In this document: positions 41,032-63,700 of the stretch, piece by piece
Numbering within the stretch: position 1 is the stretch's first letter
How the letters are laid out: each line of letters starts with the position of its first letter
From: Romanomermis culicivorax
Lineage: Eukaryota; Nematoda; Enoplea; Mermithida; Mermithidae
Assembly (NCBI GenBank): GCA_963922205.1
Contig: CAWUHX010000221.1
Location: forward strand, 310,001-374,000
Length of the DNA: 64,000 nucleotides
Reading direction: 5' to 3'
Translations under genes and position numbers: made by a program
Notes under the pieces: generated by a model
Seen by the model: the letters and a program-made list of their open reading frames with translations, nothing else
Databases searched by the model: none
What the model was told of the DNA's origin: nothing

Positions 41032-41224
41032 CATACCTGTACTTAGGTGGGAGGGACCCCCCCCCCCCCCAACTTGGTCAACCCTGTACCCAAAATCATC
41101 CAACCCCCCCAGTTTGGAAAAAAAATAGCAAAAAAGTGTATGTTTTCTGGCCTTTTTTGAGAAAAACTTTGACTTTTTTCTACCCCCCCCCCCCCCCCAA
41201 CTGGTCGGAGGTCTTACAGGTATG
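41032..41224. mobile_element. CATACC-family element, nested
   Basis: CATACCTGTACTTAGG to CTTACAGGTATG, perfect duplication ACCGAAAT (41024-41031; 41225-41232). Confidence 0.92.
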
Positions 41225-41439
41225 ACCGAAATGTCAATAGAGCGGATAAATTCCTGAGAACTCTATCGTTAACATGCTTCACCTGCTCTTGTAGAACACC
41301 AATATATTCTTCATGAGCTCATTTTTAACGAACATAACCAGAATGTTATCAATTTTTTCCTCATTTTCGCAGGTTTCTGACTCCAAATACAACAAGATGC
41401 TTGAGTATGCTCTTAAAATGCATAAAAAAGTATCCGTAG

Positions 41440-42459
41440 CACCGTTTTTTTCCTCAAATGCGGTCTTTTGAGGAAAAAAATTTCGAAATGAGGAAAAAAA
41501 ATTTCGGTATGGTTCTCATGTGGAAAAAATTTTGGGGAATTCAAAACCGAAAAGATGCGTTCTGGTGGACTTAAAAGGGTTAAAATCTCAAAATTTTCCG
41601 GCGCTTCGCGCCGGTCACAGGTACAATCTTGACTATTTTCTATCAGGCGCGGCCGTTAGCATATCTACTTCGACTTACTAATTAATGCTCAACAGTTTCT
41701 TTCAATCAAGTTAGCTCGTTTCATTTTCTAATCGTTAACAGTCAATTATGTCGCCCAAAATTGAGATTTTTCATCAATTCCCTCAATTTTTTCTCTCGAT
41801 GTTGGGAATTTTGTAAACGTCTACTACCTGAACTTTTGCGTTTATTGAAGATGGAAATTGAAGACATCATTCTAGACTGCGATTCTAGAACTTCTGTTTA
41901 GGAATATCTGTTGGAGAGATTTATTTTCCAGCGTTTTAGAATATAAAAACTGAAAAATTTTTCCGGCGCGAGGCGCCGGAATGGGAAGCAAATTATACTT
42001 CATCAGTCGGATTTTAATTTATTTCCCAACGTTGTGAAGGTTCAATTTCCAGCGTTTTAGGAAGTGAAAATCCAAAAATTTTTCCGGCGCTCCGCGCCGG
42101 ACCAAGAACTAAATAAAATTAGATGATTCTAATCAGAGCCATAGAAATGTTAAAAACAGATAAATTCCTGAGAACTCTATCGTTAACACGCTTCACCCGC
42201 TCCTGTAGAACACCAATATATTCGTCATGAGCTCATTTTGGCTAATATAACTGGAATTTTCTCAATTTTTTCCTCATTTTTGCAGGTTTCTGACTCCAAA
42301 TACAACAAAATGCTCGGGTATGCTCGTAAAATGCATAAATAAGCATCCGTAGCCACATTATGAACGTTTTTAAAAATGAGGAAAATTTTTGGAAAATGAG
42401 GAAAAAAATTTTGAGTCCGGTTCTCATGCGGAAAAAATCTTCGAGGAAAAAAAACGGTG
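41440..42459. mobile_element. hAT-like element, family R1 copy 3 (inner)
   Basis: CACCGTTTTTTTCCTC to GAGGAAAAAAAACGGTG, perfect duplication ATCCGTAG (41432-41439; 42460-42467). It inserted into the outer R1 copy, giving the impression of a tandem repeat. Three GC hairpins: 41598-41614, 41963-41979, 42084-42100. Confidence 0.92.
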
Positions 42460-42614
42460 ATCCGTAGCCACATTACAAGCGTTTTTAAAAATGAGGAAAA
42501 TTTTTGGAAAATGAGGAAAAAAATTTTGGGTCCAGTTCTCATGTGGAAAAAAATCCTCAAGGAAAAAAAACGGTGCCCCCAACTGGTCGGAGGTCTTACA
42601 GGTATGATTAGGAG

Positions 42615-43673
42615 CAGTGTTTTTTTTGTGCAAAACATGGTTTTTGGCACAAAAAATTTGGAATGGCACAAAAAATTTTGACTGGTCAAACATTAAATTT
42701 CCTTGATTTTTAGACGTTTTAGGGGCTGAGAACGCAAAATTTTTCCGACGCTACGCGCCGAATCAATGCATATAATATTTCCTACTCGTATATTTGACCC
42801 GAATGCGAACGATTCCTCTTTGAACAGTGTATTAGTATCGTTGCAGCAAACTTTATAGGCTGTCAAGACTGATGAGTGAAAATAAATTCTGGATATTCTC
42901 TCTTCATTCAGTCAGATTCGGATTTAAAACTGAAATTGTTACTTTTTGTGTTTTTGTGTTATCGTTGTTTGATTGATTCAAATAGAAAAATCGATATCAC
43001 AATGTTTCGATCGAAAATTGACACTATTTTCGACTTTATTTTCTCTATTTTTTACATAGTTGTTAAATATACATAACATAGATTTTCGTTGGTAGTCGAA
43101 AGTTGAATCAATTTGAACTTCCTGAACAATTCTAGAGCTATTTAAATTGTCTCAGCATTCCATTTCTCTTAGGGATTTCGTGAACTATTTTGTTGCACAG
43201 TTTTTTCTCTTCTCACTGACATAGTTAGCTGAAAAATAGGTTGGGCATGATTTTTACAAAAAATTAATGCGTTAAACAATAACTTTTTATCAAACTTTTG
43301 GCCTAAAACCTTTCCGCAGTTTTCAGTATGTCTCTATTAAAAAAAATTTTTTTGTGCCATTGGCACATATTTTTTTGGCCTCTTGTGCATACCTGTAAGA
43401 CCTCCGACCAGTTGGGGGGGGGGGGTAAATCCGAAATTTTGGGGGGGGGGGGGTAGGAAAAAGTCGAAATTTTTCCCAAAAAAGGCCAAAAAACATACAC
43501 TTTTTGGCAAATTTTTTTAATTTTTTCCAAACTGGGGGGGGGATTGGGGGGGTAAATGATTTTGGGTACTGGGTTGGCCAAGTTGGGGGGGGTCCCCCCC
43601 AACCCCCCCGCCCAAGTATAGGTATGGCTCTTGTGCCAATTGGCACAAATGTTCGTGCACAAAAAAAACGCTG
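42615..43673. mobile_element. hAT-A non-autonomous element, copy 4
   Basis: CAGTGTTTTTTTTGTGC to GCACAAAAAAAACGCTG; left octamer ATTAGGAG, right ATAGGAG (one base lost). Reverse orientation. Contains a nested CATACC element. Confidence 0.85.
43388..43626. mobile_element. CATACC-family element, nested in hAT-A copy 4
   Basis: CATACCTGTAAGACC to AAGTATAGGTATG; CTCTTGTG occurs on both sides (one extra G at right). Multiple G8-G13 runs. Confidence 0.85.
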
Positions 43674-44456: not shown

Positions 44457-44620
44457 TGACACAGAAGGGAATTTATCTGGTCACCTATGTACTAAGGGGT
44501 GTAATCCCATGTGAAAAAAGGGGACTCTTTACACCCTACCAAACGAAGGAAATGGGGCTAGACCTGGTTAATTTAAACCAAAAATGAATGAATTTGAATG
44601 AAATGGTGGTTTCTTAACCA

Positions 44621-46048
44621 ATGTCACATTTTACGCCATGTCACGTGTATGACATGTGGATTTGGGAGAGCTGGGGAGGTTTGGGTATCTCATCAGGTAA
44701 TACCATGTTTTAGACGTCACATTGATGGTGAACCATATCAGATTGATCCTATTACAGTGAGTAATAGGCTGTGACTCCTGATGGATACTGGCATTTTCCC
44801 CAGGCTTCCCTGGTTGGCGTTGGGGCCTAACCTGGCGAATGGTGGCTATAGAGAGGTCTATAGTTGGTTCTCTGGTGTTGTCCTTGGGGTCTTGCTGTAG
44901 GGCAATGGACAACGCTGCCAGGCTAGGTGCGACAATCCCCGAGTCCTACTCAGTGAGAATGGGGACAGGGTCACCCGTAAAATGACCTAATTTGTGGGAC
45001 CCGATTATGAACCAGACAGCCCCTTTTTAGCCCGAACCTGAGAGGTGGAGGCCCTACTTATCTGTGGAAAACTTGGGAAACTGACTTAGGAAGGATTTCC
45101 CAACAAATACCCCACAAAATAACAATAATCCTCTGAGAAGACTCACCTAGTCCTGTTTCTCAAGCGATTCGACGAAATGGGCGGCAAGTCCCTGGATACT
45201 TTCGGTCTTCTGGCACTGGAGCGGGGGGATGCGATCCACACAAGTCCTAGCGGCGAGTGGCGGCAAGCGGGAGGCGATCGGGAGGCGATTCTCCAACGTT
45301 TTCTTCACGAACCGGGGCGGTCGGACACCTAGCACTGATGGGCAGCGGGTACTGTAGACGGGTAAGCGGCGGATGCAGTAACCGGATATAAATTTATGCA
45401 AATTAATTTGCTATGAGGCGGCGGACGCAGTAAAGATAGTTCTTCGAATTTATTCAAATTAGGCTATAAGGCGGCAGATGCTGACAACAAATCGGACGCA
45501 GGGGTAAACCCAGGAATGAGCGAAAAACTAAAGAAACATGTCCTTTTAAGGACATGTTTGGCTACAGCTGCAGCTTGGGCGGAGTTTCTCGGCGTCCAAG
45601 CTAACTTCTGCAGCTAGATACGATGCAAAAGATGCCTATGAGCACATAGACATTTTTCGTTCACATGCGTTTAGCACTGAGGCCAACTGCAGTGCCTATG
45701 CTAAGCATATGAACATCTTTAGCTAAACTTCTTAGCTAGTCGTTTTTGCGTAACAAAAAAGATGCTAATTTTTGATGATAAGAGGTGCATGAATGCACCA
45801 AAAATAGCCATGTGCTCGTGGAGCACGACTGGCGGAAGTTTTTAGCTAAAGGGCCTACTGTAGCCCGCGTTCATAAAGAAATAAAAATATAACAAAACGA
45901 AACATAGAAATGCATGAAAAATATAAAAACGAACATGAAATGCATGTGCAACAATGAAATAAACAAAAACATGAATGAGTAATAAACGAGTTATGAAGAA
46001 AAACAAAATATTGGCATGATCGGAATCACGTGACGTTGGGTAATTGAG
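44621..46048. repeat. Module M, copy 1 (1428 bp)
   Basis: Nearly identical in length and sequence to 59272-60698: starts ATGTCACATTTTACGCC and ends CACGTGACGTTGGGTAATTGAG. Contains the palindrome ATGTCCTTTTAAGGACATGT near 45538. CACGTG motifs stand near both ends in inverted sense. Confidence 0.9.
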
Positions 46049-46215
46049 ACAGCGAGTGGTCGAATAGGTCCGTTGGGTTGTTGGCGGATGGAGCCTTCTT
46101 TGATCGTAATTCGTTCGACAGTATGGTAACCGGAAATTGTTGATGCGTGGAGTTGCAGACATTGAATATCCTATGCGAAAGTCTAGAACACAGAAAAGAA
46201 AAATTTTCAGGGCAA

Positions 46216-46362
46216 GATGTAGGCTATCGCAGAGGATGCACCCAGTGAGGTACAGATTATCGGGTTATCGCAGAGGATGCACCCAGTGAAGTGTAAGATA
46301 TCGGGTTATCACAGGGGATGCACCCAGTGAGGTGTAGGCTATCGCGTGGGGATGCGCCTAGG
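46216..46362. repeat. Tandem repeat, unit about 47-50 bp
   Basis: Three full units with ATCGCAGAGGATGCACCCAG and TGAGGTGTAGGCT, and a partial fourth, between the integrase end and module M. In an LTR reading this is the U3 side. Confidence 0.8.
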
Positions 46363-46386
46363 ATGTGGCGCTTTGGTTGCTGAACA

Positions 46387-46399
46387 TTCTCTTCTATCC
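46387..46399 (-). promoter_or_regulatory. Candidate polypurine tract
   Basis: The element strand reads GGATAGAAGAGAA directly before the TG.. border of the 3' LTR. In LTR retroelements this primes plus-strand DNA synthesis. Position and composition only. Confidence 0.45.
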
Positions 46400-47031
46400 A
46401 CTAAAATCCAGCATGGATAAGAATGGATACTTCGTGAGGGGCACGGCGGTCCTTCGAAAAAGGACGTCCTCGTCCGTAAGCGGGGACAATGAAGAGAATG
46501 CATCTTGAATTAAGGGTCGGGGACCTCTGCATCAAGATGTGGGTCAATCAAATTTGGTGTAAAGTCCCGGCTTATTGAAGGATACAACAAGGGTGCCGAA
46601 TCCGTTGCCTGTGAAGTGGGAGGTGTATCCTCTGCTTCACTCGGTGGTTCAGGGGACACGTAAAGTCGAAGCTGGTTGACATGTACAGTGTCTTCCTGAT
46701 CCGTCTCGAGACGAAGTGTGACATTGGGATATGCCACACTTGTTACAAGATAGGGCCCATTGTAGATGGGCAGCAATTTAGGAGTGAGTCCACATTTGCT
46801 GGAGGTGCGCAGTTTGAGCACCTGATCCCCTACTTTGTACTAGACATCGTGTGCCCTGCGGTCGTAAGACCGTGCATAGGCCTCCTGTGCTTTCTCAATC
46901 CGACTCTGGATTAAGGTTAAGGCATTCGTGAAATGACGTTTGACCTCCATATCATATGAGGAAACATTAATGATATGTGCCGGAGGGTTGAATGAGAGCG
47001 CGGCATCAAGAGGGAGCATGGGTGTGCGACC

Positions 47032-47691
47032 CTACATGAGTTCAAAGGGCGAGTACCCTGTTGACTCATTCATGCTGATATTGACGGCAAACACAGCGTA
47101 TGGTAGGTGTTCATCCCAATCAGTATGTCCGTGATGAACATACATACGTAGCCGTGTGGCTAGCATCTGATTAGCTCTTTCCACCTCGCCGTTGGTCATC
47201 GGATGATAGGTGGTAGAGTGGATCTTCTTCGTTGCGCAGATCGCAGTGATCTCAGTCATCAGTTTTGATGTGAAATCAGTGCCACGATCTGACTGAAGAA
47301 TCTGCGGTGCCCCGTGCCGGCAGACAATTTGCGTTACAAACAGCCGGGCTATGGTGTGCGCAGTGATGTCCGGAGTAGCAAAAGCCTCGACCCATTTCGT
47401 AAAGTAGTCGATGAAGACTACGATGAAACGGTTGCCAGCTTCGCTAGTGGTCATTGGTCCCATACAGTCGACACCTACCCGATGAAACGGTCCCGTAATG
47501 GTGATGGGTTTCAGGGTCGCAGTGGTTTTCTGTCGAGCGGGCTTATTCCGTTGGCAAAGATCACACCGCTGACAGAAAGATTTGACATCCCGACTGAGGG
47601 AAGGCCAGTGGTATCTGCGAGCAATGAGCCGCGCAGTACGTTTAGCACCAAAGTGTCCAGCTAAGATGTCATCATGATGAGCCCGGATAAT
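47032..47691 (-). other. Integrase core (zinc finger and DDE)
   Basis: Part of the polyprotein. HHCC-type zinc site, then D2364 in GVDCMGP, D2424 in QSDRGTDF and E2460 in TNGEVERAN, spacing as in DD35E integrases. It inserts the reverse-transcribed DNA into the host chromosome. The frame is cut at SPFELM by TAG, between the catalytic core and the GPY/F module. Confidence 0.92.
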
Positions 47692-47859
47692 GGTAGTAAC
47701 CATGGATCTGGGTATGACAATCTTATTGGACTCGCCTGTCCATTTCTGAAGAACGTTATCCAACAGATGGTAGCCTCGCACATCATTCTGGTCGCCCAGA
47801 GGCTTAAGAGAGCGAATGATGTCAGCTAACTCCGGATCCTCCAGCTGAGCAGCGAAAAG

Positions 47860-48033
47860 GTCGGGGTGCTGCGCACCAACCGATATCTCGGCATAAGACT
47901 CTGATCCTACCGGGCGCTCCGCGCCAGCAGTGATCGGTGCTGAATTACTTGAACGCGCCAGGTGCTGCACACCATCGGTCAAGGTTCTTGATCTCGCCAG
48001 GTGCTGCGCACCATCGGTGATCATCATAACATG
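47860..48033 (-). repeat. Hairpin-bearing peptide repeats between RNase H and integrase
   Basis: The protein has three to four GAQHLARS-like units (residues 2176-2232). In the DNA each coincides with a small palindrome: GGTGCTGCGCACC (about 47863 and 48000), GGCGCTCCGCGCC (about 47912), GGTGCTGCACACC (about 47960). These resemble the dispersed hairpin found in the hAT-like families here. Confidence 0.6.
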
Positions 48034-48093
48034 CCCCTCAGGTCTGTAAAGGGGAGTATCATCAATACTCTGACCGGTGAGGGAGTTAGGATC

Positions 48094-49356
48094 CGGCAGG
48101 CGTGATAATGCATCAGCATTACCATTAGACTGACCTTTTCGCGGCCGAATGGTCAGTTTGAATTCGGCGAGCGCGAGTCCCCACCGAGCGATCCGAGCAG
48201 AGGGGTTAGGCTTCTCCAATACTGCTTTGATCGCGGTATGGTCAGTCTGAATGACCACCTCGTGCTGGAAGAGGTATGGTCGAAAGTGCTTGACAAAATG
48301 GACAACAGCGAGAGTTTCCAGTTCTGTAATGGAATAGTTTTTCTCGGCCGCTGTTAACCCTCGGCTGGCGTACGCGACAGGATGGTCGTATCCAAATTCG
48401 TCTAACTGGCTTTGAACTGCTCCTATCCCCGAAATACTTGCATCAGTTTGAAGGATAAAGGATTTCGAAAAGTCCGGATGGCGCAGGATAGGAGGGTTGG
48501 TCAGCAGGCGGCGGAGTTCATCGAACGCCTCCTGCTGAGGTTTTGACCACTGGAAAGTAGTTTCCTTCCGTAAGAGCTTGGTGAGTGGCTCGCTGAGCCG
48601 GGCACAACCAGAGATGAAACGCCTGTAGTAAGACACGAGGCCTAGGAAGGACTTGATGTCTTTGGCGTTTTGTGGAATGGGTAGATTTTGGACGGCGGCC
48701 AGCTTGGCTTGGTCAGGTTCTAGGCCGCTCTGTGAGATGCGATAGCCTAGGTACTCTACCTCTGAGTGTGAGAATTTGCACTTGCTCAGTCTGAGCTTCA
48801 TTCCACCCTGGCGAAGACGGGCGAACACATCTGCCAGGCGCTCAAGCATTTGGGTGTGAGAGTTCCCGAACACCAAAATGTCGTCGAGATAGGTCAGAAC
48901 TGTGCACCATTGGATTCCAGTAAGGAGGAGGTCCATAAGGCGTTGAAGTGTCCCTGGTGCATTGCACAGACCGAAAGGCAAATAATTGAATTCGTAAAGT
49001 CCAATGGGCGTATTAAATGCCGTCTTTTCTTTATCCGCCTCGGCAATCGGGATTGACCAATAAGCGTTAGCCTGATCAAGGGTAGTGAAATGCTTCATAC
49101 CCTTGAGTGTGTCGAGGATGTCATCTATCCGTGGGAGAGGGTAGACATCCTTTTTCGTGACCTCGTTAAGACCACGAAAGTCAACACACATACGGTGAGA
49201 ACCGTTTTTCTTGCGCACCAGGACAGTATTAGTAGCCCACGGTGACGTGCTCAGCCGAATAATACCTTTCTCCTGGAGCGCCTTGACCTCCTGCATGATG
49301 AGATCCTTTTCCTTAGGTGAGGACCAGTAAGGGAAACGGCGGACTGGGCGGGCATC
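48094..49356 (-). other. Reverse transcriptase and RNase H domains
   Basis: RT: RFPYWSSPKE entry, SPWATNTVLVRKKNG, D1828 in TTLDQANAYW, LPFGLCNAPGT and YLDD (1890-1893), then KSFLGLVSYYRRF. RNase H: LQTDASISGIGAV with D2039, ITELETLAVV with E2079, IQTDHTAI with D2106, ending NADALSRLP. All match Ty3/gypsy enzymes with no missing catalytic residue. Confidence 0.95.
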
Positions 49357-49863
49357 GCCTGTGCTGATTTCGTGCTGGACGAGATCAGTGGAACCTGTGT
49401 CCTTTTCATCAAGAGCATAAAGGTCGGTGTATGCAACCAGCAGATCGAGTAAGGCTGCCCGGTCCCGAGGGGAGATATCCGGTGAGATTACAGCATTGGC
49501 CTCGACCCACTGACGATCGAGGACGGTGTCTGAGTCGACCGGTGATTCCCGTGAGGGCTCACTATGCATTTGCACATGACCGATGGTCATGTGCGGGTAG
49601 AGAACCATGGAATGTGTATTCGGGTTAACTACTTGAAGTGGTATGTGACCGTTGGTCACGCTACTCACACTTCCAGCAAAATATACGTTTCTTTGAGATC
49701 CCGTGAGGTGCTTCGGGAAGAAGGCCACCTCAGGTACGTTCGTATAGATTGGTGGGACGGGTACAGTGAATCGTGTCAGGGAGCGAGGCTCCAAAATTAC
49801 CAAGTCCTTCAGGGGCAAGGCGCCGCGGGCAGAAGGTGGGCTGTGGATGAGACCGTCACAGGG

Positions 49864-50211
49864 GATTCTACTTTCGTTGAACTGGAGGAAGGATTTCTCC
49901 CAGTTCAAGCTGACACAATTGAACCGGCCAAGGAAGTTTGTTCCAAGGACCAGTTCAGCTGAACAGTTCTCCTGTATTTGGACCTGAATCCGTTCAGAGA
50001 CATCAGCCACTGTAACTGTGATGTAGGCTGCTCCTAGCAGTGGGATCGGGGACCCCTTGGCTGCGATAGGACGAGCCCTGGTTGGTGAAAGTGTCAAGTT
50101 GGGCAGCTGGGCCGCTAACTTGTGGTCTAGGAGTGAGAAAACAGCTCCTGTGCCGACCAGTGCCTTTGCTTCTACCCAGTTGTTGAGGAGAGCTTTGATA
50201 TGGGGTCTCCG
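49864..50211 (-). other. Second, degenerate retropepsin-like domain
   Basis: Sits directly before RT, where Ty3/gypsy proteases normally lie. The flap and C-terminal strands are recognisable (LVLGTNFLGRF), but the active-site triplet is GTG in KALVGTGAVFSLL (G1469), so the catalytic Asp is missing. It may be a decayed or structural protease. Confidence 0.7.
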
Positions 50212-50808
50212 AATATCATTTGGGTAAAAAGTAGAGACCACATGACCGGAATCAGGTGTGGTGGCACCACTTGTGTGTTTAGTCTTACCGGACCGCTTTG
50301 GAATCGGCAGTCCCGTATGACGTAGTAGACCTACTAGAGCATATCCGACGGAGGGTTCCGGGTCATTCAGAAGGGTGGACTCATTCTGTACCGTGAGTAC
50401 GTGGTCTGAGTGGTCCCTTGGGCTCTGAGTAGCTTCTAGTGATTCAATCTCGGTGTCCGATAGCGGTGGCGCGGTTGGCACAGGTGATGCCGGAGCATCT
50501 GAATCACTTGGCTCACGGTATCGGCCTTTCTCTAGCGTAACTGGAGAGTTTCCAGGCGGAGGTCGAGGGCAACCTGACCCGTGCAAGGTCGACGAATGAC
50601 GACTTGCCCGTCTGGAAGAAGCCCGGTATCCCCTTGTTGACCCACGTGATGAGGCAACTGAGGAGGCCCGTGAGTGTGGCCGAGAGATGGACGAAGCCCT
50701 GGACCGCGATCGTGATCCCGACCTGTGTGAGCTTCTTGAGAGAGCACGGGTGTTCTCCCACCAGGGGTCGATCTGGTCAATCTCCGGCGTGGTCAGCAGG
50801 AGGGGTGA

Positions 50809-51216
50809 TTCTACCGCGTCCAGCCGACAAACATTACGTTGGTAGTCAAACATAATGTTCTTGAACTGTTCTAAGAAGTCCAGTCCGAGTATGAGGTAAA
50901 CGGGTGCCCAGAAGGGAGACGTAGTCTTGCACACATGGAGATGTATATCGATCCGTGTGTTCGGCTGGCGGTTTCCGGGCAACGTGATTTCATATGGTCC
51001 CGAAAGGATGGTATGCACGGCTTTACCATTGATGCTCATCAATGGGTTAAAGTCGTGATGTTGCTGGAATGCCATGACCGCCTTCGGACTTTCTTTAGCC
51101 AAAGCCTTATGAAGACGTTGGCTAATGATAGTGCGGGGGCAACCCGTATCAAGGAAAGCAGGAGTTTCCTTGGCATCCAGCAGCACGACGAAGCACGGTG
51201 TGATTCGGTCAAGCTG
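50809..51216 (-). other. First retropepsin-like domain, fused to the envelope tail
   Basis: PAFLDTGCPRTII (D1137), about 60 residues after the Env transmembrane segment, and a C-terminal ILGLDFLEQF. As read, it would face the cytosol or particle interior at the end of the glycoprotein. Confidence 0.75.
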
Positions 51217-51303
51217 GGAGGGTACATCGTTTTGCACGTAGTGAAAACCGATCCAGCGTTGGACTTTGCGGTAAAGACCCAACGGGGAGAAACGGCTAAC
51301 AAA

Positions 51304-53058
51304 CCTGACCTGTTTGCTCCGCAGACGGTAGCTGAGATAATAAGATACACCAAGATAGGCAAGGTATCCGACACCAATCAGCACTGTCAGGGTAATTAGG
51401 ATGTTAAAGATCAACTGGACCGGCCCGCTCAGGACAGCATGCAAGCCCTGGGCGAGGGTGTGTTGTTGACCCGTAATAACATGGTTTGCTGCCAGACCAA
51501 CACCTTCCAGAGAGGCCTTGATGTCGGTTCCTACCCCTGCAAAGGCCTGGTAGATGGCGTCTGGTTGCAGGGATAGACCAGCGGTAAAGTTTACCAGCCG
51601 GTTGAGTACCGCTTCAATTTGCTCAGTCTTGTAAACGTACTGTTTAAAGAAGGCAAAGTTTGAAGGGGTCATCGCCAACTGGTCATGGAAGAGCGCCGGA
51701 GCCTCAAAGTGAGTGATGTTGAAACGCTGCTTCCAGAAGAGTTCCAGTGGGATGTGGCTCACATGGACCGCGCCAGACTCAGTAAACCAGCCCGAGCGAT
51801 TTCGGAAAATCCCTGTAAAGTGGTGATGACACGGCACAATTGGGCTAGATTTAATGAGATCTGGACCACCGGGGGTGGCGAAATAGATGGTGCCGCCGAC
51901 CTGTACAGGTAAGTACTTGTAGCAAACGTTTCCCACCCGGTACGAGTGGTAAACGTAGGTGGCGTTGACCTTCTGACACAGCCATATTGTCAGTGCATCG
52001 CCTGTGAATTCCGCCGTCAGGTCATTCCTCTGGAGGAATGCCCGGGCACCCAAGGTAGGGTCGAAGCGAAGCAACTGCCAAGTCAGATCAAGATAGCGTT
52101 GAGCGTGAGAGCAGAGCTCAAGCCACGTGAACCAGAAACCGTTAATTTCCGACTCCTTGATCTGCTGAGCCAGGTAGTTCAGTTTGGCATTGACAGGATC
52201 GGGACGTGTGTCCTTTGCCATCGTGAACAAGTTTTGGGTCAAATTGTATCTCCCCTGGATGCGAAGGAGAAGACCCTGATCCATCCGGACTGTGGTGGAA
52301 CATAGTTCTGGGCACAGTTGGAAGACGCGGGAGTTTCCCGGGATCTTGAGGGCAACCTGTAGATCATCAATGATGACGTGGTTCCCTGACATGGACGCAG
52401 TGTAATTTTCCTTGGGGTGATAATGACACCGCGCCGTGAAGTTTTGTGCAGGCCAGACAATGACCCCGTCTAGAGTAGTGCACTGACCTGCAGTGGGACT
52501 GCATCCACCTACATCGCCTAAGGTGCTTAGGGCCGTAGTGCCATCCCACGAAGCGACTTGTCCCTCCTCGATGAAGAGGTTAGTCACTGTCTTGCAGACG
52601 TCACTGCAGCACCATTCGTACATCACTTCCAATGTTTGGTTTGTGCTATAAAAGCCAGGGCGAATGCGGACAAGTTTTTGTGAGCCAAACATCTTAGTGC
52701 GATGTGCTAGCGTGCAGGCCGCAGGCGCTAAGTGCTGAGTGGTAATGACGTCTGCAGTAGTGCCCCTAGAGCCGAAGAAACCAGTGTTGGTGCAGACTTT
52801 GCGGGTGCCCAATGTGCATTTCCACGCTGTGGTTGTAATCGGGTCTGAGCTAGGGACATACACCGTAACGTTCATGCCCCGCGGGCTCCATGAAGATTGC
52901 GGTGGTTTACACTCTACACGTTGGGGTAACTCAAGTGGATGTCCGCTTCTTGAGAGACCACAAAATTGATACTGAGCCGCCAGTGCTGACAAACTCACCC
53001 CTAGAAACAGTGATGTTACCAAGGTCAATTTTATTATCAAAAACAACTGTACAAACAT
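51304..53058 (-). other. Envelope-like glycoprotein domain
   Basis: An in-frame ATG at 53058 opens a classic signal peptide (residues 501-528, hydrophobic core LTLVTSLFLGVSLSALA). The ectodomain has over 20 Cys, nine N-glycosylation sequons (N563, 640, 706, 718, 772, 865, 920, 947, 990) and the cluster WKCTLGTRKVCTNTGFFGS. One transmembrane segment (about 1049-1075, FNILITLTVLIGVGYLAYLG) is followed by a basic tail. Type I membrane glycoprotein layout; presumably for membrane fusion or cell-to-cell spread. The Cys pattern reminds me of glycoproteins that LTR elements captured from negative-strand RNA viruses, but only a profile search or structure model can say. ORF-X ends 50 nt upstream. Confidence 0.8.
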
Positions 53059-53107
53059 GGTTTGTAAGTGTTCACACCTTCTCACAAATCTGGCCTGAGG
53101 GGCAGTG

Positions 53108-53923
53108 TCAGATTTCTTCTTCGTCGCTGTCAGACGAGATGGGTTCCTGGCCGGGGAAATCGAGGACCAATCCACCACATGGGTGGATTTCCCGGAGGAT
53201 ACCGACTTTTGGCGACCGTGGGGCGACTGCCGTTGGGAACGGAGATTCCTCAACAATGCTGACATCTTCGTTAACCGGACGTAAGATCTCGTCGACGGCC
53301 ATGTGTTCGACGACGGGCGACTTGGTCGCAGCAGTCGGAGATGTCTCTTGGGCTGTTGCCGACGATGTATTTTGGGCTGGTGCCGACGGTGTATTTTGGG
53401 CTGGTGCTGACGTTGTGGTGTGGGCTGTTGCCGGCGGTGTAGGATCATTTGCGGGTTCCTTAGCCGGAGGCGAGGAAGCAGTAATGTCCATTTCTGTTGG
53501 CGGTGTAGCGGCAACAGATGGCGCTGCTGTCGGTGATGTAGCGGCGACAGCAGGCAGGAGGATCTGACTGGCCTGTTCGACTGCTCGGCGGACGGCATCG
53601 ACCGAAGGCGAGGATGGCTCCCCATCCAATAAGAACTTCTCGACGGGCGAGATTGTGATAGTCCCATTGGCAATGAACTCGAGTGCCCGTCGGGCGACGT
53701 CGGGTCGTAAGAGTCGCATTGATACAGGTGCCACGAGCACCACGTCGGCGGCCGTGAGCGCTTCGACATGCGATGGCTCGTTGAGCAGAGTCCACGGCAA
53801 ATGGGGGTATTTCTTGGCCAGGTCAACTGACCAGATGGCCAACATCGCGTCTTGGACGGGCGATGGCGCTGCGAACAAGAAATCGATAGAGTCGTAGACT
53901 GAGATAGATTTCTGGTTCCTACT
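53108..53923 (-). CDS. ORF-X: overlapping -1 frame protein, 271 codons
   Basis: Open from just after a TAG (53926-53924) to TAA-type end at 53108, shifted -1 from the gag-env-pol frame. It has no ATG near its start, so frameshifting or splicing would be needed. The N-terminal 110 residues look folded ([34 protein letters not shown]), then a Thr/Pro/Ala-rich stretch, then a very acidic end (SSDSDEEEI). The main frame over the same bases is Ser/Arg/His-rich low complexity, as expected from reading a Pro/Ala/Thr frame out of phase. I therefore think this frame is the real coding sequence here. No family recognised. Confidence 0.6.
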
Positions 53924-54558
53924 CTAGGATCACCTGAAGAAGAAGGTAGTATACCTGACAAATTCATGGGCTCGACCTGGTCGAGGACTTCCATAGCCGA
54001 ATCCGTGGGGATCGAAGGCGGTGGTCCTGGAGGGACGATGCGGGCCGGTGGCGCCGAAGATGTCGTATTTGCAGCTGGAGCTGGCTCGGCAGTCGAGGTT
54101 TTGGGGATGCAATACGAAGCGAGGATGTTAGCGTGGCCAACAAACTGCGGTGTCGTCGAGGGGTCCATGGTGACTGGCATTGCATACCTTGGTGGTGGTG
54201 GTGGCAGCGGTATGTCCGATACATTTATCGGTACGGGTACCTGGGCTGCTTGGACCACTGAAAACCCAATACTGATTACGCAGACAGGATAACACTGTTG
54301 TGAAGGATCTGTCAGGTGTTCAGCAAGTGCCTCATCATCCAGATCAAGAGGATCTGGATGAGGAGGGCCATCGGTAGCCCCAACGGCGTTGTTGCGGGGT
54401 ATGGGCTGCCGATATTGGTTCCCCATCCCGTTAGGAGGGTGATAACCATTTCTCTGATGATACACATTTGTCCCCTGGGAAGAATAACCAGTATTTTGGT
54501 AGTCATTCTCACCCGTGTTTGCCGGATTGCACTGCGGACAGGCAGTTGATTGGTGCAC

Positions 54559-55674
54559 TCACACTTGACGACAATGAGGGCATGGCCTGTCACATCGGTC
54601 CGTGGGGTGGGCACGTGTACGGCAAAAATAACAGCGACCCCAATTAGCAGTGTTGTTACCGGGAGCGGCACCGGTGGGATGCTGGGCCCGGCAGTCGGCG
54701 TCACTATGTGTACACAGTCCGTGGAAGGAGCAGGTTTGAAGGTGTGCTCCCGACGAGCGTCGCCCGGCGGACTGATTTGGTGTCGACGGCTGTGGAGGCA
54801 GCGTCTGTTGGATTGGCGCTGGTGCACGTTGCTGGGCCATAAGCTTCGCTACATGGGCCGTTAGCCTGGCCATTTCCTGTTTCAAGCGGCGAACCTCATC
54901 GGCGGAGGATGACGACGTTTGAGCATTGCTCTGAAGACCGTTAGCGCTTCTGTTAGGCATTTCGGGATTATATCCGGCGTGTTTAGGTTCTGAAGAGAAA
55001 ACGGCGTTAGATGGTGCGGTGTACCGAATCTCATCCCGAAAAATTTGGGATTCTGCGTAACAGGCTGCCTTGAGCGTCTCTTCAAGAGTCGTAAACTCCC
55101 TAAACTTGATACTATCTCGGAGGACCAGTTTCAATCCTCGCAGAAAGATAGGTTTGATAATAGAATCTCGGACATCCGTCGTGAGATCTGGATACGCTAC
55201 CCTGGATAGTCTCTTGAGGTGCTCAAGGTAGACTATCGCGGACTCTGTCAGCTTCTGCAGGGGATCTTGGATCAGCTGCTGATGCAGATCAGAGTCGCGC
55301 CCTACCGGAAAATCTCTCCGTAGAAAAGCCGTAAACTCTTCGTAGCGGGTAGGTATTGGAGTGCTGCTGCTAAAGTCCCGGTAGGAGGCAAGAGCAGGAC
55401 CCGTGAGGCATGACTCCAGAAAGGCAATTTTATACGCATGATCCGTTTCGCTTACACCCTGGAGTGTAAAGAAACGAGTAAGATGCGACATAAAATCTGT
55501 GATAGACTCACCAAAAGCACCGGAGAAGGTTGGAGGGGCCATAAAGCTGGACACGGGAGGGTGCCTCCGACCATTCATGGCCTCTAACTTTTGGTTGAGG
55601 GGTCCAAGAGCATTCTCAAATGCTGCCTGGACCTTGTTCTCGATCTGTGAAGGGAGATCAGTTTCCGACTTCAT
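54559..55674 (-). CDS. gag: Gag polyprotein of the retroelement
   Basis: 371 residues from ATG 55674 to TGA 54561-54559. Residues 45-215 form a Ty3/gypsy-type capsid domain (FSGAFGESITDFMSHLTRFF, FLRRDFPVG). A short coiled-coil-like segment at 258-283 follows, then a CSFHGLCTHSDADC metal site (315-328) and a canonical CX2CX4HX4C knuckle (348-361). A second knuckle starts with CPHC (365-368), but its His and last Cys lie after the stop codon. The frame is also open upstream of the ATG to about 55974, with no earlier ATG found. Gag assembles the particle and binds RNA. Confidence 0.88.
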   Translation of the reverse strand: MKSETDLPSQIENKVQAAFENALGPLNQKLEAMNGRRHPPVSSFMAPPTFSGAFGESITDFMSHLTRFFTLQGVSETDHAYKIAFLESCLTGPALASYRDFSSSTPIPTRYEEFTAFLRRDFPVGRDSDLHQQLIQDPLQKLTESAIVYLEHLKRLSRVAYPDLTTDVRDSIIKPIFLRGLKLVLRDSIKFREFTTLEETLKAACYAESQIFRDEIRYTAPSNAVFSSEPKHAGYNPEMPNRSANGLQSNAQTSSSSADEVRRLKQEMARLTAHVAKLMAQQRAPAPIQQTLPPQPSTPNQSAGRRSSGAHLQTCSFHGLCTHSDADCRAQHPTGAAPGNNTANWGRCYFCRTRAHPTDRCDRPCPHCRQV

Positions 55675-56164
55675 GTCCGAGGGTTCGTTTTCCCGTAAGG
55701 TGGTTAGAACAGACGTCCTTGCCCGTGAAGCAATTAAGTCAAATTGAATAGAGAGCGGCTCACTGGTCTGTACAGGCTGGGTACTGAGACGGCAGGAACC
55801 ACGAGGTGTCTCTATTGTGTAAAATGAAAGTGAGTACTACTTTTGAATTCGCGGCGAAAGAGCGCGTGAATTCGAAAAAACGCGTTGGCGACAGCGTTTG
55901 TGATGTAAACTTGATTTAGCTTAAGACTAGCGACCACGAAAATGGAGCTAGAACGGGAATAGGATTGTAAGATGCAAGATCAGAGTACACCAGGGTGACG
56001 CAGAAGGGAATTTATCTGGTCGCCCGTGATGGATAGAGGCATGGCCTGAGACATGGGGGAATCGATCCCGACCAAAAATGTAGAGTTGGGGCCTGGACCC
56101 GGCAATTAGAATAGCCGAAAAGGACAGAAGATTAGATATAAGAGGAGAGAAAAGGCGGTTTTTC

Positions 56165-59100
56165 CTGCCGAGAAATAAGATGACGGATGAACCCGCTCAG
56201 GAGGGATTTTTCCTGGAGGTTCGACCGTTTGTACTAGTTTACAAACCTTGGGGCGAGGCGGACTCGTAGCCGGCAAGATCCTACTCACCAGGAGTAGCGC
56301 ATAAAGTGGCATAAAGTGAAAAGGATGTGGACAACTGAAAGTGAACTTAAAAGGGAGCAATAAATAGGGACAAAACTAGTTTACAAACCCAGTTACGCAA
56401 AGGGGCCGCGCAGTTACGCAACGGGCCTCACTCGCCAGGAGTGATTGCGATCTCTGTACAGTGTGATGGACTATACAGAGGTTCAGTGCTGGACGACATT
56501 CGCAAGTAAGTTACAGCCGTGTCCGAAACGGGAGCCCGCATTCCGAACAGAATGGACACTCTCCAGGAGTATTATATACAGCTGGTGGCCGGGTTGCCGA
56601 TCACTGAGATGAAATGAGGCTCGCAGGTCACACAGTGGAAGAGAGAAGGAGCACGGGTACCAAGGATGCTATTCTGACACACTCAGTCAGTTAAAATGAA
56701 TTACTCTGGATGTTTTGAGGGCGCACCCGAAAACATCTAAGGGATCACGGGTACAAGGTGTCCCTGGGTGAATATTGAGTGTAAATAACTGAGGCGGACC
56801 CAGTTATGTATCGAGGCGTACTCAATACCTTCGCTGAGGCGGACTCAATGGCGCCTATTATATTACATGACTAACAGGGGGTGGACCGCGGAGGCGGACT
56901 CTGGGTCAGTGGCGACTCTAGCGCGGGCATCGTTAAGCCAGTTAATGAAGGCATTCAAGTGAATGAAATATGACAGGGGGTCCTATACACTCTAGGCCCA
57001 ACCGGAGGCTGTGCCGCGGTCCCTCGGGAACCACTACAGTGGAGACACTAAAGAAGATCTATGTATGACAGCTCGATGACATGAAAGAGAATGAGTGAAT
57101 TTAGATAAGAAATTTACAAGAAGGCTGCCAAACCCTTGCAGACGTCAGACACAGGCAGTACCGACTGCAAATGCCTGCTGTCTACACGAGTCAAACAACC
57201 AACCCAGCTGAGGCCGAGTGTAACTCGTTCAAACCTGCAGTTAAAGCTTGAAAGCAGCCACGTGCTGATCAACAGTGCCGCTACCTGGGCGGACAACCTG
57301 ATCAGTACGCAGGCTAGAGAGCATCTCAGGTGGTGTATGTATGTGGACTGATGTTTCCCAGGCATCAGTCCCCAGACACACACGAACCCTTTGACAAGAG
57401 AGGTAGGTGATAGGACCATGCGCCAGCAACCACCTACGACTCAAGTGGAATACTCGTAGGACCGACAGTAACCTGGTACTGACGTCAAAAGGTAGGGGTA
57501 TGAACCAACACATGACCTTGGTGCTGACTGCAGGTGCCTGGGATAAGAGTATTCAAGTATCATGTTGCAGTTGCAGACGCCAGGGGTGAGTGCCTGAGGC
57601 CAGCAAAACCCCTGCAGTAGCACATAATGTTACCGTTGCGGATGTCAGAAATAGGATCATGTAACCTCAATTCCTGCTGCGAGAACATGATACATTGTCA
57701 TTGCTGACGTCAGCAATAGGGCCCTGAAGCCAACTATCTGTAGCAGCAACACGTGATGGTGCCATTGCTGACGTCAAAAGGTGGAACCGAGGGTCTGATA
57801 CCTTAAGTCAATGACATGAGATGCAGTTGTTGCAGACGTCAGATGTGGCACCCGTAAGACCTGCACATCTTTGAATAGTGACACGGTGCGTCACCATTGC
57901 TGACGTCACAGATGGGGTGCAGTGAACCAGCCGAACCTGTTGCAACAACGTTAGCTTCAGCTGTTGCAGACGTCAGAAGTCAGTACTGCAGGAGTATTAA
58001 CTCAAACGACAACACGTAATGTCACCGTTGCTGACGTCAGGAGTAGAACCCGGAGGGCTACCCACCCCTTAAAACAACAGTAAGTGAAGCGTCTGTTGCA
58101 GACGCCAGTGGTTGCATCCGTGAGGCTGAACCACACAACAACAACAACCCGTAACATTGTCATTGCTGACATCACAGAGCATGACCCGTAAAGTCTATGG
58201 TCTAGATGCAACAACCCGAGAATAGAAGAGAAAAGACCTTACAGTAAGTAGAAATGAGAAAGAGCGAGAAACTTACGTAACGGTGTCATACTGTAGCGGT
58301 GGCATCAGAAAACAAAATTTTTTTTTTTTTTTTTTTTTTTGACACCGCTCAGATGACCGAGAAAAGAAATGGGGGAAAAATAACCAAAAATGGAGATTTG
58401 GACATACGCGTGTTAAATGTGTAAACAGTAGGTGTAAAAATTTTGGGGCGGGAAAAGTGAGCAATTCCGACAGTTTCCGCCGACATACAAAAATACTGTA
58501 CACAATTAACAGATCGCAGCCACGTATGACGTCCAGAATCATACGTGGAGGGTGTACGGTATCATGGGGTCATGGACCACCGACAGTCAGGAGAGGCCGT
58601 CAACCCCTACAGCTGTGATACCAGTACTCGCGTATGGGTATACTGTAGTTACAGTACGGGAATGGACACAGGCGTACTGTAACGGCACCCACCCTGAGGG
58701 TTACAGTATACCACCCAAAATGAGAGAAAAGGGGGGGAATAAAGGGAAAAGAAACAGAGAAGGTAGTTTACAACACAGACTAAGTATGGAGAATATACAG
58801 GATTAATCAGAGGAGAAATACAGAATACTCGATATATAACTCAACTCTGGGACAGATAACTCGACTCTGAGGACATTTAACTCGGCTCTGGGGGTAAATA
58901 ACTCGACTCAGGGGAATTTATTACTCATAGGGGTAATACACACGCATGAGATAATTATTTACACATATAGATCACATGTAGATCACTCGTAAGGGCAAAT
59001 CCCATCTTACAGTAATAATACTCGACTTGAGGGGAAGGTTCCGACCTACAGTAGCGGTAATCTGAAATAAGGGACATTCCCGACCCATTAGGCAGTAAAC

Positions 59101-59271
59101 CCGAATCTGGGGGGGTCTCCGACGTATTGGATGGCTAGTACCCGATTTTAAGGGGGCTTGTCCGACTTAAAAATGGGAATTGACCCGACCTGGGGGTAGT
59201 TCCGACCCAAGGGTGAAGTTTTTGCACTTAAGGGCGAGTGCCAGACTTAAGGTCGATTTTCCAGCCTCGCC
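56165..59271. repeat. Segment X, copy 1 (about 3.1 kb)
   Basis: Direct diverged repeat of 60717-64000. Landmarks in the same order: AACCCGCTCAGGAGGG, CTACTCACCAGGAGTAGCGC, ATTATATACAGCTGGTGGCC, the TGACGTCA array, a T23 run (58318-58340), then short CCGACTTAAGGG-type units. No ORF of note. Confidence 0.85.
57480..58210. promoter_or_regulatory. Array of TGACGTCA (CRE) sites in tandem units
   Basis: Five perfect TGACGTCA octamers at 57480, 57705, 57769, 57901 and 58032, most within TTGCTGACGTCA, plus variants (GCAGACGTCAGA, GCTGACATCACA) in units of about 60-65 bp. TGACGTCA is the palindromic binding site of CREB/ATF bZIP factors. It resembles the tandem enhancers of retroviral U3 regions. It lies 1.8-2.4 kb upstream of the gag ATG. 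Confidence 0.75.
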
Positions 59272-60698
59272 ATGTCACATTTTACGCCATGTCACGTGTA
59301 TGACATGTGGATTTGGGAGAGCTGGGGAGGTTTGGGTATCTCATCAGGTAATATCGTGTTTTAGACATCACATTGATGGTGAACCATATCAGATTGATCC
59401 TTATACAGTGAGTAATAGGCTGTGACTCCTGATGGATACTGGCATTTTCCCCAGGCTTCCCTGGTTGGCGTTGGGGCCTAACCTGGTGAATGGTGGCTAT
59501 AGAGAGGTCTATAGTTGGTTCTCTGGTGTTGTCCTTGGGGTCTTGCTGTAGGGTAATGGACAACGCTGCCAGGCTAGGTGCGACAATCCCCGAGTCCTAC
59601 TCAGTGAGAGTGGGGACAGGGTCACCCGTAAAATGACCTAATTTGTGGGACCCGATTATGAACCAGACAGCCCCTTTTTAGCCCGAACCTGAGAGGTGGA
59701 GGCCCTACTTATCTGTGGAAAACTTGGGAAACCGACTTAGGAAGGATTTCCCAACAAATACCCCACAAATAACAATAATCCCCTGAGAAGACTCACCTAG
59801 TCCTGTTTCTCAAGGGATTCGACGAAACGGGCAGCAAGTCCCTGGATACTTTCGGTCTTCTGGCACTGGAGCGGGGGGATGCGATCCACACGAGTCCTAG
59901 CGGCGAGTGGCGGCGAGCAGGAGGCGATCGGGAGGCGATTCTCCAATGTTTTCTTCACGAACCGGGGCGGTCGGACACCTAGCACTGATGGGCAGCGGGT
60001 ACTGTAGACGGGTAAGCGGCGGACGCAGTAACCAGATATAAATTTATGCAAATTAATTTGCTATGAGGCGGCGGATGCAGTAAAGATAGTTCTTCGAATT
60101 TATTCAAATTAGGCTATAAGGCGGCGGACGCTGTCAACAAATCGGACGCAAGGGTAAACCCAGGAATGAGCGAAAAACTAAAGAAACATGTCCTTTTAAG
60201 GACATGTTTGGCTACAGCTGCAGCTTGGGCGGAGTTTCTCGGCGTCCAAGCTAACTTCTGCAGCTAGACGCGATGCAGAAGATGCCTATGAGCACATAGA
60301 AATTTTTCGTTCACATGCGTTTAGCACTGAGGCCGACTGCAGTGCCTATGCTAAGCATATGAACGTCTTTAGCTAAACTTCTTAGCTAGTCGTTTTTGCG
60401 TAACAAAAACGACGCTAATTTTTGATGATAAGAGGTGCATGAATGCACCAAAAATAGCCATGTGCTCGTGGAGCACGACTGGGGGAAGTTTTTAGCTAAA
60501 GGGCCTACTGTAGCCGGCGTTCATAAAGAAATAAAAATATAACAAAACGAAACATAGAAATGCATGAAAAATATAAAAACGAACATGAAATGCATGTGCA
60601 ACAATGAAATAAACAAAAACATGAATGAGTAATAAACGAGTTATGAAGAAAAACAAAATATTGGCATGATAGGAATCACGTGACGTTGGGGAATTGAG
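59272..60698. repeat. Module M, copy 2 (1427 bp)
   Basis: Only scattered substitutions from 44621-46048. Flanked by X and X' instead of the U5 and U3 neighbours seen at copy 1. Confidence 0.9.
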
Positions 60699-60716
60699 CA
60701 GCACGTGACACCAAAA

Positions 60717-63700
60717 AGAGACAAGAATGACTCGTGTGTACCGATAAACCCACTCAAAAGGGATTTTATTTGGGAGTTAAGTCCGTTGTGCTAGTTTACA
60801 AAACCTTGGATTTGGAAGAACTCGTAACCGTCAAAGTCCTACTCACCAGGAGTAGCGCATGAAGTAGCTTAGGAAGATAAGTAAAGGGGGACAACTTAAA
60901 ATAAACTTAGTGGGCGTAAATAGATAGGGACAAAATTAGTTTACACACCAAATTACCCAAAGGGGATGCACTATTACGCAATGGGCCTCACTCACTAGGA
61001 GCAATTGCCATCTCTGTAAAGTGTGATGACTAGACAAGAGGTTCCCAAGGGGACGACATTCCCATGTATATTACAACCATGCCCAAAACGGGAATTTGCA
61101 TTTTGAACATAATAGGAGCTCTCCAGAAGCATTATATACAGCTGGTGGCCAGGATTCCAGTCACTGAGATGTAGTGAGGATAGCTAGGTCACCAGTTGGA
61201 GGTAAGAGCACCAGGTACCAAGGTGCTATTCTGACACACTCAGTCAGTAAATGGGTGGCATGGGGGTCCTTGGCCCAGCCGTGCCTAATGGAGGTGGAGA
61301 TATGCTGGCTTCCTCCTATGATTCGAGGCAGAGCTCAAAGCATCTTGAGATCAGGGGTACAGTCTGTCTTGATTAAATGAGTGTTAAGTGAAGAGCTGAG
61401 GCAGAACCAGTTGTAATGTGTTTAGGTGGACTCTAACACCTTCGCTAAGGCGGACTAGCGGTATATTATGCTATATGGACAACCAATGGAGGCGGACTCA
61501 GGATTAAGGGGCGACTCTTGTGCGGACATTATTACACCAGCTAACGAAGGCATTTGAGTGAAAGAAGGATTACAGGGGGTTCTTTTACACTTTAGGCCCA
61601 ACCAGTGGCTATGCCCTAATTCCCGAGGAATTATTCTGGCGGGGACACTAAACAAGATCATAGGTGAGAAGGAAATGTGAGAAATTCAAAAAGAAATTTA
61701 CAGGAAGGTTGTCAACCCTTGTGGATGTCAGACACAGGCAGTACCGACTGCAAATGCCTAACAGTTGCCTAAGTTAAGCAACCAGCCCAGCTGAGGCCGA
61801 GTGTAACCAGTTCAAACGGGCAGTTAAAGCTTTGAAGGTAGTCACGTGCTGACCAACAGTGCTGTTACCCGGGAGGACAACCTGATCAGTATCATGGACT
61901 GAATGCATCTCAGGTTGAGTTAGCATGTTGACTGATGTTTCCCAGGCATCAGTGACACGCAAAACACAACCCTTTGACAAGAGCTGTAGGTGAGAGGGTC
62001 ATATTCCAACAATCACTTATGACTCAAGAGGCATCTTTGGAAACCCGCAGTAACCTGGTGCTGATGTCAAAAGGTATTATATACACCACCACACACTCGG
62101 TGCTGACCTCAGGTAACTGGGATGTAAGTGCCATAGTCTCATATTGCAGTATGAACGCCAAAGGTAAGGGCCTGCGGCCACAAAACCCCTACGGTAACAC
62201 AGAGCATTGCTGTTGTAGATGTCAGAATAGGATTGTAAAATCTCAATTCCAATTCTGGAATAGAAACATTATCATTGCGGACATCAATGGATAGAGCTCT
62301 GAGGCCAGCAACCCTGCTACAGCAACACGGAGCATCACCATTGCTGACATCAAAAGGCCATAGCTGAGTATCAACTATCCTACAGCAATGACGTGAGATG
62401 CAGTTTTTGCAGATGTCAGATGTGGGGTTTGTAAGGCCCACACATCTCCAAACAACAACACGTGGCGTTGTCATTGCTGACCTCAAGGACTGGAATCAGT
62501 AAACCAACCAGTCCTAGTGCAACAACACAAACCTCTGCTGTTGCAGATGGTGCCGTAAGGTCACCATCCGGCAATAACAACATGTTATGTTGCCATTGCT
62601 GACATCAGAGGTAGAGCCAGAGGGCCACCCACCCCTTAAAGCAACAGCAAGGGATGCAGCTGTTGCAGATGCAGGGGAAGGATGCAGCGAACCAGCAATT
62701 CCTGAATGGCTACATGTTATGTGGCCATTGCTGAGGTCAGAGGCATGACCCGGAGAGGCATGGACCTCAATGCAACAGCAGCATTGGAGTCAGTTGTGGA
62801 CGTCAGAAGGTAGGGTCACTAAGACACATTACCTCATAACAACAACATGGTGTGTTATAGTTGCTGACGTCAGTGGTCATGACTTGTAAAATCATCACCA
62901 CTTGCAATGAGTCACAGAGACAGAAGAAGAAGACGGTACAGTAAGTGGATGAAATAATAAGAATGACCTACTGAAGGGTTGCCAACTATAATGTATGTGT
63001 GACCGAGAAAAAAAATTGTTTTTTTTTGTTTTTTTTTAATTAGGAATGTTTGATTTAGTAGAAAGGAAAAGGAGAAATTTTATTTTGTTTGTTTAGAAAG
63101 TAGAGAAAGTAGGTTATGAGTTTTTATTTGATTTGATTTTTGTTGGGATAAGAAAATTTATTGGGTGAAAAAGTTATTATAATTGGTGTCACACATTACA
63201 TATAGATGACTGAGAAAGTGAAAGTAAAGTAAATAAAATAAAATTTGAGGCCGATGAGATAAGCAATGTGATCTGATATGTATGGTGTTAAATGTGTCAA
63301 CAGTATGATTTAATTTGTTTTGGCCAGAAAAATGAGCAACTTGGCTAGTGCTCAGTGAAGATAAGAAAAAGTTGAAAAAGTGTGTTGACACAAATACCGG
63401 ACATAGATAACAAAATCATGACCACACTTGACGTCCAGAATCAAGTGGGGAAGGAGTACTGTATTTCATGATTGTAAATCACGAAACGTTCAAGGGATGT
63501 AAACCTCATGGGCTGTGATACTCAAGTACCCGTACCCAGGTATACTGTAGTCAGAGTACATGCAAATCACAGGCATACTGTAACCAAGCTAGCTCTACGG
63601 CAGTACAGTAACCCATCAGATCACAAGGAGAGGCAAAAGACCCAAATGAAAATAAATTTTGAAAAAATAAAAGAAGAAAGCTCAGAGGAGGTTTTAGGCA

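Follow-up and report, generated by a model that had tools for sequence, protein, structure and literature searches.

How can a retroelement make its envelope glycoprotein when the env gene lies ahead of pol? Retroviruses and env-bearing long terminal repeat (LTR) elements are regarded as invariably having the order gag-pol-env, with a spliced env. A different order is found in a Ty3-type LTR element of 16,089 bp, located on the minus strand at 44622-60710 of a 64,000-nucleotide stretch of the genome of the nematode Romanomermis culicivorax (contig CAWUHX010000221.1, positions 310,001 to 374,000; hereafter the window, in whose coordinates all positions are given). Flanked by a CCAA target-site duplication, this element encodes, from 5' to 3', gag, a class III fusion glycoprotein, two retropepsin-like domains, reverse transcriptase (RT), ribonuclease H (RNase H) and integrase. 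A preliminary description of this DNA had reported the same gene order, which open reading frames (ORFs) and Pfam matches confirm; it had placed the element at 46510..55674, an extent that falls short of the LTRs. It is probable that a class III glycoprotein of the mononegavirus/chuvirus-gB kind was captured, became fixed in frame between gag and the protease, and works as part of one polyprotein. On balance, a deep Ty3 lineage may well make Gag-Env-Pol as a membrane-threaded polyprotein in the style of flaviviruses without splicing, to which the family of the window element would add an overprinted gene in the -1 frame and a second retropepsin.

The order is shared by other copies in the same genome. 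The assembly of 359 Mb (595 contigs) was searched with whole-genome matches ranked by score, and the copy counts are lower bounds biased to well-kept copies. At least 75 env copies are present (the best 75 of 4,198 candidates), with 96-98% identity apart from the window itself, and, of these 75, 45 are embedded in a single uninterrupted frame of 3,091-3,116 amino acids. When env was paired with the 131 RT copies listed, all 54 pairs had RT on the downstream side, at a distance of 1,804 nucleotides (53 copies) or 1,805 nucleotides (one copy), and never upstream; the remaining 21 env copies have no partner among those RT copies. The preliminary description had considered that other copies might carry env at the 3' end, or that the glycoprotein might be an insertion unique to this copy. 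An RT partner was assigned to 54 of the 75 env copies, none of which has env 3' of pol, and env is not a unique insertion. The element is a high-copy one, and it has probably been active recently.

Further families in the same genome show the same arrangement. A distant env query, the database protein P0004, detected five of them in 20 loci fetched from at least 75 matches, and a sixth lies at C252 (L064/L065); identity between families is 40-68%. All seven pol pieces from these families, which cover six families (L066 is close to the L062 family), have the order env-protease-RT-RNase H-integrase. The env frame stays open for 1,224-1,379 amino acids past env in five of the seven, for 876 amino acids in L063 (to the integrase start) and for 70 amino acids in L061. 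Upstream of env, 10 of the 20 loci are open over all 500 amino acids fetched. Among database proteins, all six with both env and RT have env first. A gag match is also found ahead of env in P0001, P0003, P0004 and P0119; in P0002 that region contains a CCHC motif without a gag match, P0003 consists of gag and env only, and P0005 of env only. P0001, P0003, P0004, P0119 and L065 have gag and env in a single frame. None of the eight env-bearing database proteins carries a name from its source. A search for elements with the same order, which the preliminary description had proposed for related genomes, gave that order in six or more further families of this genome and in all six database proteins with both domains.

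The distinct lineage with env between gag and pol that had been suggested is supported by this recurrent order and by an RT tree of 31 rows, in which 15 env-labelled rows and one env-less relative form one group (support 83/77; the tree held no BEL, copia or retroviral outgroup, and P0049 was dropped as too short). Support is thus moderate for the group as a whole and strong for two subclades inside it (100/100 and 99/93). P0079 was labelled env-bearing from a transmembrane-like remnant at its start, seen by eye, and the place of P0001 and P0002, which are on long branches, is unsure. The env label needs two changes on this tree, which may be read as one gain and one loss. In the env tree, one branch (93/89) separates members of the same two subclades. 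The two trees fit one old capture of env followed by its vertical descent with pol, with moderate support. The env-less relative inside the clade, P0084, has two hydrophobic segments between gag and RT (residues 509-593), which are possibly the remnant of an env deletion, as if the ectodomain had been deleted. In P0001, an RRM-type RNA-binding domain (PF00076), placed by eye, lies between the zinc knuckles (about 410) and env (825), and the gag-env spacer therefore seems to accept extra domains.

The glycoprotein corresponds to residues 501-1085 of the long ORF of the element and contains 17 Cys residues, besides the signal peptide, the nine N-x-S/T sequons and the one strong transmembrane segment that had been read from the sequence at first. 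In a profile search of these residues, the env of the window matches the Pfam family PF24664 (Monjiviricetes_fusion) at 2.1e-13, above the cut-off, and its match to BDV_G falls below the cut-off. In two env alignments with two members in common, PF24664 is matched by every member (8 of 8 and 9 of 9), and the herpesvirus gB family PF00606 by 6 of 8 and 6 of 9. When the nine-sequence env profile was compared with PDB, all 28 matches at E up to 1 were herpes gB, over the gB core, the best one (0.0037) being the only one below 0.05. On account of these matches, env is assigned by sequence to the class III fusion glycoproteins of the gB type. The structure prediction that had also been proposed, run with AlphaFold, gave a first half rich in beta structure and, in the centre, a long helix (288-332), in models of low confidence that are too weak to prove the fold (mean predicted local distance difference test score, pLDDT, 53.9 and 64.8; predicted template modelling score, pTM, 0.33 and 0.36). 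Env is under constraint: its ratio of nonsynonymous to synonymous polymorphism (pN/pS) is 0.14 (25 nonsynonymous and 53 synonymous shared variants, 30 copies). Fourteen Cys columns are invariant across five env sequences, and env is kept at 29-46% identity among the compared sequences. A profile search for free-standing env yielded one further protein only, P0005, and a scan of IMG/VR with the env alignment gave 13 pattern matches, none of which was confirmed.

The feature common to the elements is a continuous frame into env. In the window, gag (open frame 54562-55836) and the long ORF (47032-54558, 2,508 amino acids) share one frame and are parted by a single stop codon. This stop is private to the window copy, being present in one of 30 copies compared, and programmed read-through was ruled out because the other 29 copies lack it. 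Since two more in-frame stops interrupt its integrase, the window copy is defective. The 30 copies, the window included, were ranked by similarity to an ORF in the -1 frame, which favours that frame being open. This ORF (orf271; mostly 263-279 codons, at least 142 copies scored in the genome) overlaps residues about 226-490 of the long ORF, that is, a part of the gag-env spacer, and it is the more constrained frame there. It is open in 23 of the 30 copies, with pN/pS of 0.29 (27 nonsynonymous, 33 synonymous) and variants distributed 21/8/33 over the codon positions, and each of its four Met codons is retained in 29 or 30 of the 30 copies. Over the same stretch the pol frame has pN/pS of 0.88 (46 nonsynonymous, 18 synonymous), and its residues look nearly unconstrained. 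On the other hand, the pol frame is open across the spacer in 21 of the 30 copies, with no stop in the window spacer. When the -1 protein was held fixed and synonymous codons were randomly recoded, the pol frame was open in 1 of 20,000 recodings, 7.9 stops being expected; when the pol-frame protein was held fixed, the -1 frame was open in none of 5,000. Applied to control stretches of gag, env and RT, this simulation returns stop numbers close to those observed. In the third frame of the spacer, every one of the 30 copies carries 5-10 stops. That the spacer had undergone two frameshift mutations was rejected, both frames being open in most copies. Free residues combined with the exclusion of stops are what a spacer should show if ribosomes have to cross it on the way from Gag into Env-Pol, and this is the best evidence for a polyprotein.

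The ORF in the -1 frame has no Pfam match, and no clear relative of it was found in the six other families of this genome (tblastn, E 0.36-0.57 only). A relation to the gag-env interval of P0001-P0004 was rejected, nothing being above shuffles (z -1.4 to 0.6); read in the pol frame, that stretch reaches z 2.0 against P0001 and lower values against P0002-P0004. The L058 family has a 208-amino-acid open stretch in the +1 frame.

A polyprotein of this kind would be threaded through the membrane. Gag would be made first, in the cytosol, and the internal signal peptide would then direct the next 540 or so residues into the endoplasmic reticulum. The transmembrane anchor would halt transfer, leaving protease, RT, RNase H and integrase to be synthesized on the cytosolic side. 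Gag would be separated from Env by signal peptidase, and Pol from the Env tail by the protease of the element. By these cleavages, Env is proposed to reach membranes and particles, where it might act in fusion, without a spliced RNA. The predicted topology, with cytosolic Gag, lumenal ectodomain, transmembrane segment and cytosolic Pol, makes sense of the gene order. In the structural polyproteins of flaviviruses and alphaviruses, a cytosolic capsid is likewise followed by an internal signal peptide, a lumenal glycoprotein and then further products. The predicted topology resembles theirs, whereas the proteins are unrelated and those viruses are RNA viruses without reverse transcription.

Env might instead be translated from a subgenomic spliced RNA, either from its own ATG or after joining to the gag start, with the common frame as a by-product of the gene order; this is unlikely, although it survives best among the alternatives. 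Of the two routes of expression envisaged in the preliminary description, the polyprotein is favoured, and the ATG that had been named as the env start, 53058, is ruled out as such because only 3 of the 30 copies have it. Several points weigh on the other side. In 28 of the 30 copies, an in-frame Met codon stands seven codons before 53058, and a Met also lies close to the signal peptide of five other elements (P0001, P0004, L053, L065 and, at 17 residues, L039), so that an own env start is possible in some members. Retroviral ENV comes from a spliced mRNA, according to the excerpt of the source cited (PMC10309623), and a transcript joined to the gag ATG would escape the Met argument altogether. 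P0003 ends after env (1,186 amino acids), and pol is thus not always in the same ORF; the spacer of the L039 family has no codon-position signal (8/10/11). The copies compared are the best-scoring ones, a choice that favours open frames, and the env models are weak at the pLDDT and pTM values given above. A 1:1 ratio of Gag to Pol is unusual and would need a separate source of Gag, and the evidence for the polyprotein is drawn from sequence. What argues for the polyprotein and against splicing is that 5 of 12 elements (L044, L057, L058, P0002 and P0003) lack an in-frame Met in the 50 residues that precede the signal core, and an own env start is therefore not a common feature. In this survey, which left out P0088 and P0101, P0001 (wrong hydrophobic core picked) and L065 (core starting with Met) were not counted as Met-less. 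The spacer kept open in the pol frame and the single frame of gag and env in P0001, P0003, P0004, P0119 and L065 also argue against splicing.

The glycoprotein could also be kept as a membrane anchor that places Gag-Pol at the membrane for assembly or intracellular transport, and not for infection. The high copy number (at least 142 copies of the overlapping ORF) indicates successful transposition within the genome, and the polyprotein layout would tether every Gag-Pol chain. It is nevertheless improbable that anchoring is the whole function of an ectodomain with 14 invariant Cys columns in five sequences, pN/pS of 0.14 and 29-46% identity; P0084, which shows that the ectodomain can be lost, cuts both ways. 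A role of the ORF in the -1 frame as the true end of Gag, reached by a frameshift or an intron, with the pol frame open across it by chance, is very improbable. The constraint on that frame (pN/pS 0.29 vs 0.88, codon positions 21/8/33) and its openness in 23 of the 30 copies, all of them chosen for their similarity to this ORF, would fit such a role. Chance openness of the pol frame, however, is expected once in 20,000, in a simulation that matches the controls on env, RT and gag; no relative of the ORF was found in the six other families, whose gag and env follow each other directly in frame; and reading of the sequence at the opening of the -1 frame revealed no canonical slippery heptamer. 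A viral glycoprotein nested in one Ty3 copy, or an assembly artefact, for which no supporting point was found, may be dismissed, since all 54 paired copies agree in order and spacing, which excludes an insertion unique to the window copy, and the order recurs in other families and in database proteins.

Capture of envelope genes by LTR elements has precedents, which are given here as far as the excerpts of the cited sources go. Anakin comprises BEL/Pao elements of mosquitoes with a chuvirus glycoprotein (PMC7642597). Like the window element, these are LTR elements with a captured class III glycoprotein of the chuvirus/Monjiviricetes kind, while they differ in superfamily, the window element being of the Ty3 type without a BEL-type Pfam match. 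In Roo, Tas and Cer-7, envelope-like proteins derived from Gypsy, phlebovirus and herpesvirus lie downstream of the polyprotein (PMC7642597); these are BEL/Pao elements, whereas the window element is Ty3 and has env upstream of pol. Gypsy fragments are reported near such glycoproteins in insects, with two cases in complete transposons, but with no clear evidence that Gypsy elements captured the glycoprotein (PMC10084718). Small FAST-like fusogens (sORF2) are encoded by MDG1-group elements in a separate ORF upstream of gag (PMC11952523), a precedent of another kind for a fusogen-like gene upstream of pol, unlike the large glycoprotein inside the polyprotein of the window element. Env captures in bdelloid rotifers (PMC5408684) and Troyka elements without env (PMC12440569) have also been described. 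In Retroviridae, the layout is gag-pol-env with a spliced env (PMC10309623); the window element shares gag, pol and env in an LTR provirus with them and differs in having gag-env-pol in one frame. A search of open-licence PMC papers by title and start of abstract found no gag-env-pol order, which is not proof of absence. The errantiviruses, such as Drosophila gypsy, and other env-bearing Metaviridae likewise combine Ty3-type gag and pol with a captured env. Their env lies 3' of pol and is of the baculovirus type, whereas that of the window element is class III and lies between gag and protease.

Both protease domains noticed in the preliminary description are present, with qualifications on each. 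The first (PR1) has LDTG at 51153 in 8 of 8 copies, and its Pfam match is weak. The second (PR2), near 50175, matches PF13975 with 24.1 bits, below the cut-off of 28.2, and has lost its catalytic Asp in the window copy. Seven other copies were inspected there, of which one is frame-broken; the six readable siblings all keep DTG, and a degenerate PR2 was therefore ruled out, the loss of the active site being confined to the window copy. Both of the tandem retropepsins (49920-51200, minus strand) carry DTG in sibling copies. PR2 is the orthologue of the one protease that the other families in this genome possess. PR1 is seen as an extra domain in the family of the window element only, and it weakly resembles the single protease of P0001 (0.002) and P0002 (2e-4). 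The tandem may be a linked pair, or one protease may be in the course of replacing the other.

The features of the element are collected in Table 1. Its domain order from protease to integrase, with an H2C2 integrase, is that of Ty3/gypsy (Metaviridae). All Pfam matches are of the Ty3 type, with no BEL-type domain, such as BEL pol carries, at E<=1. RT matches outside the env lineage reach 45-49% identity, some being named 'K02A2.6-like' or 'transposon 17.6' and many being unnamed or 'uncharacterized'. The two LTRs, of about 1.43 kb each with TG..CA termini, have a Kimura two-parameter distance of 0.028, and the 4-bp target duplication lies directly outside both. Scans of the window with Rfam and for tRNA gave no match. 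A part of the leader (56183-58105) resembles, at 71-77%, the DNA at 60740-62672 just outside the 5' LTR, as if the element had been inserted in or beside an older related element. At 40175-43628 the window contains blocks with poly-C tracts that are repeated at intervals of about 0.9-1.1 kb, and of which inverted copies occur elsewhere in the window.

Table 1. Features of the Ty3-type element in window coordinates, with the basis of each assignment
Feature	Position	Strand	Basis
Target-site duplication CCAA, low-coordinate side	44618..44621	.	CCAA outside both LTRs
3' LTR, inner edge slightly degenerate	44622..46053	-	97.3% identity to 59272-60702
Integrase C-terminal tail, after stop 46840-46842	46513..46839	-	matches P0004 over 59 amino acids, 1.8e-11
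Integrase (H2C2 zinc finger and core), then stop 47032-47034	47035..48000	-	PF17921 1.3e-22, PF00665 1.7e-09
RNase H	48001..48600	-	PF17917 2.3e-35, PF17919 1e-34
Reverse transcriptase	48601..49500	-	PF00078 3.8e-35; RT tree
PR2 retropepsin, catalytic Asp lost in window copy	49920..50190	-	PF13975 5.5e-05
PR1, additional LDTG retropepsin-like domain	50821..51200	-	LDTG in 8/8 copies; weak PF13975 0.055
env, class III (gB/Monjiviricetes-type) fusion glycoprotein, by sequence	51304..53058	-	Pfam and profile matches
env signal peptide	about 52960-53058	-	within env
env transmembrane segment	about 51334-51420	-	within env
gag-env spacer, read in common gag/env/pol frame	53083..54558	-	ORF and copy comparison
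Overlapping -1 frame ORF, constrained	53111..53923	-	mostly 263, 271 or 279 codons in different copies
Stop between gag and long ORF, private to window copy	54559..54561	-	1/30 copies
gag, from first Met; Ty3-type capsid about 55060-55506; Cys/His-rich C-terminal end	54562..55674	-	PF19259 (Ty3_capsid) 2.9e-07, 30.6 bits, cut-off 29.1
Long 5' leader	55837..59254	-	longest ATG-started ORF 101 amino acids
Candidate primer-binding site, begins TGG directly after 5' LTR	59255..59272	-	sequence reading
5' LTR	59273..60710	-	LTR comparison
Target-site duplication CCAA, high-coordinate side	60711..60714	.	CCAA outside both LTRs

A lineage with env in frame between gag and pol means that the order gag-pol-env is not obligatory, and it adds the capture of a class III glycoprotein to the Ty3 elements. 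The many nearly identical copies in this genome make both an unspliced Env and the delivery of Gag-Env-Pol as one chain directly testable. The position of env suggests a second route for making Env and hints that the infectious particle is built in another way than in retroviruses; if the polyprotein reading is true, Env would be coupled to Gag and Pol during synthesis with no need of splicing.

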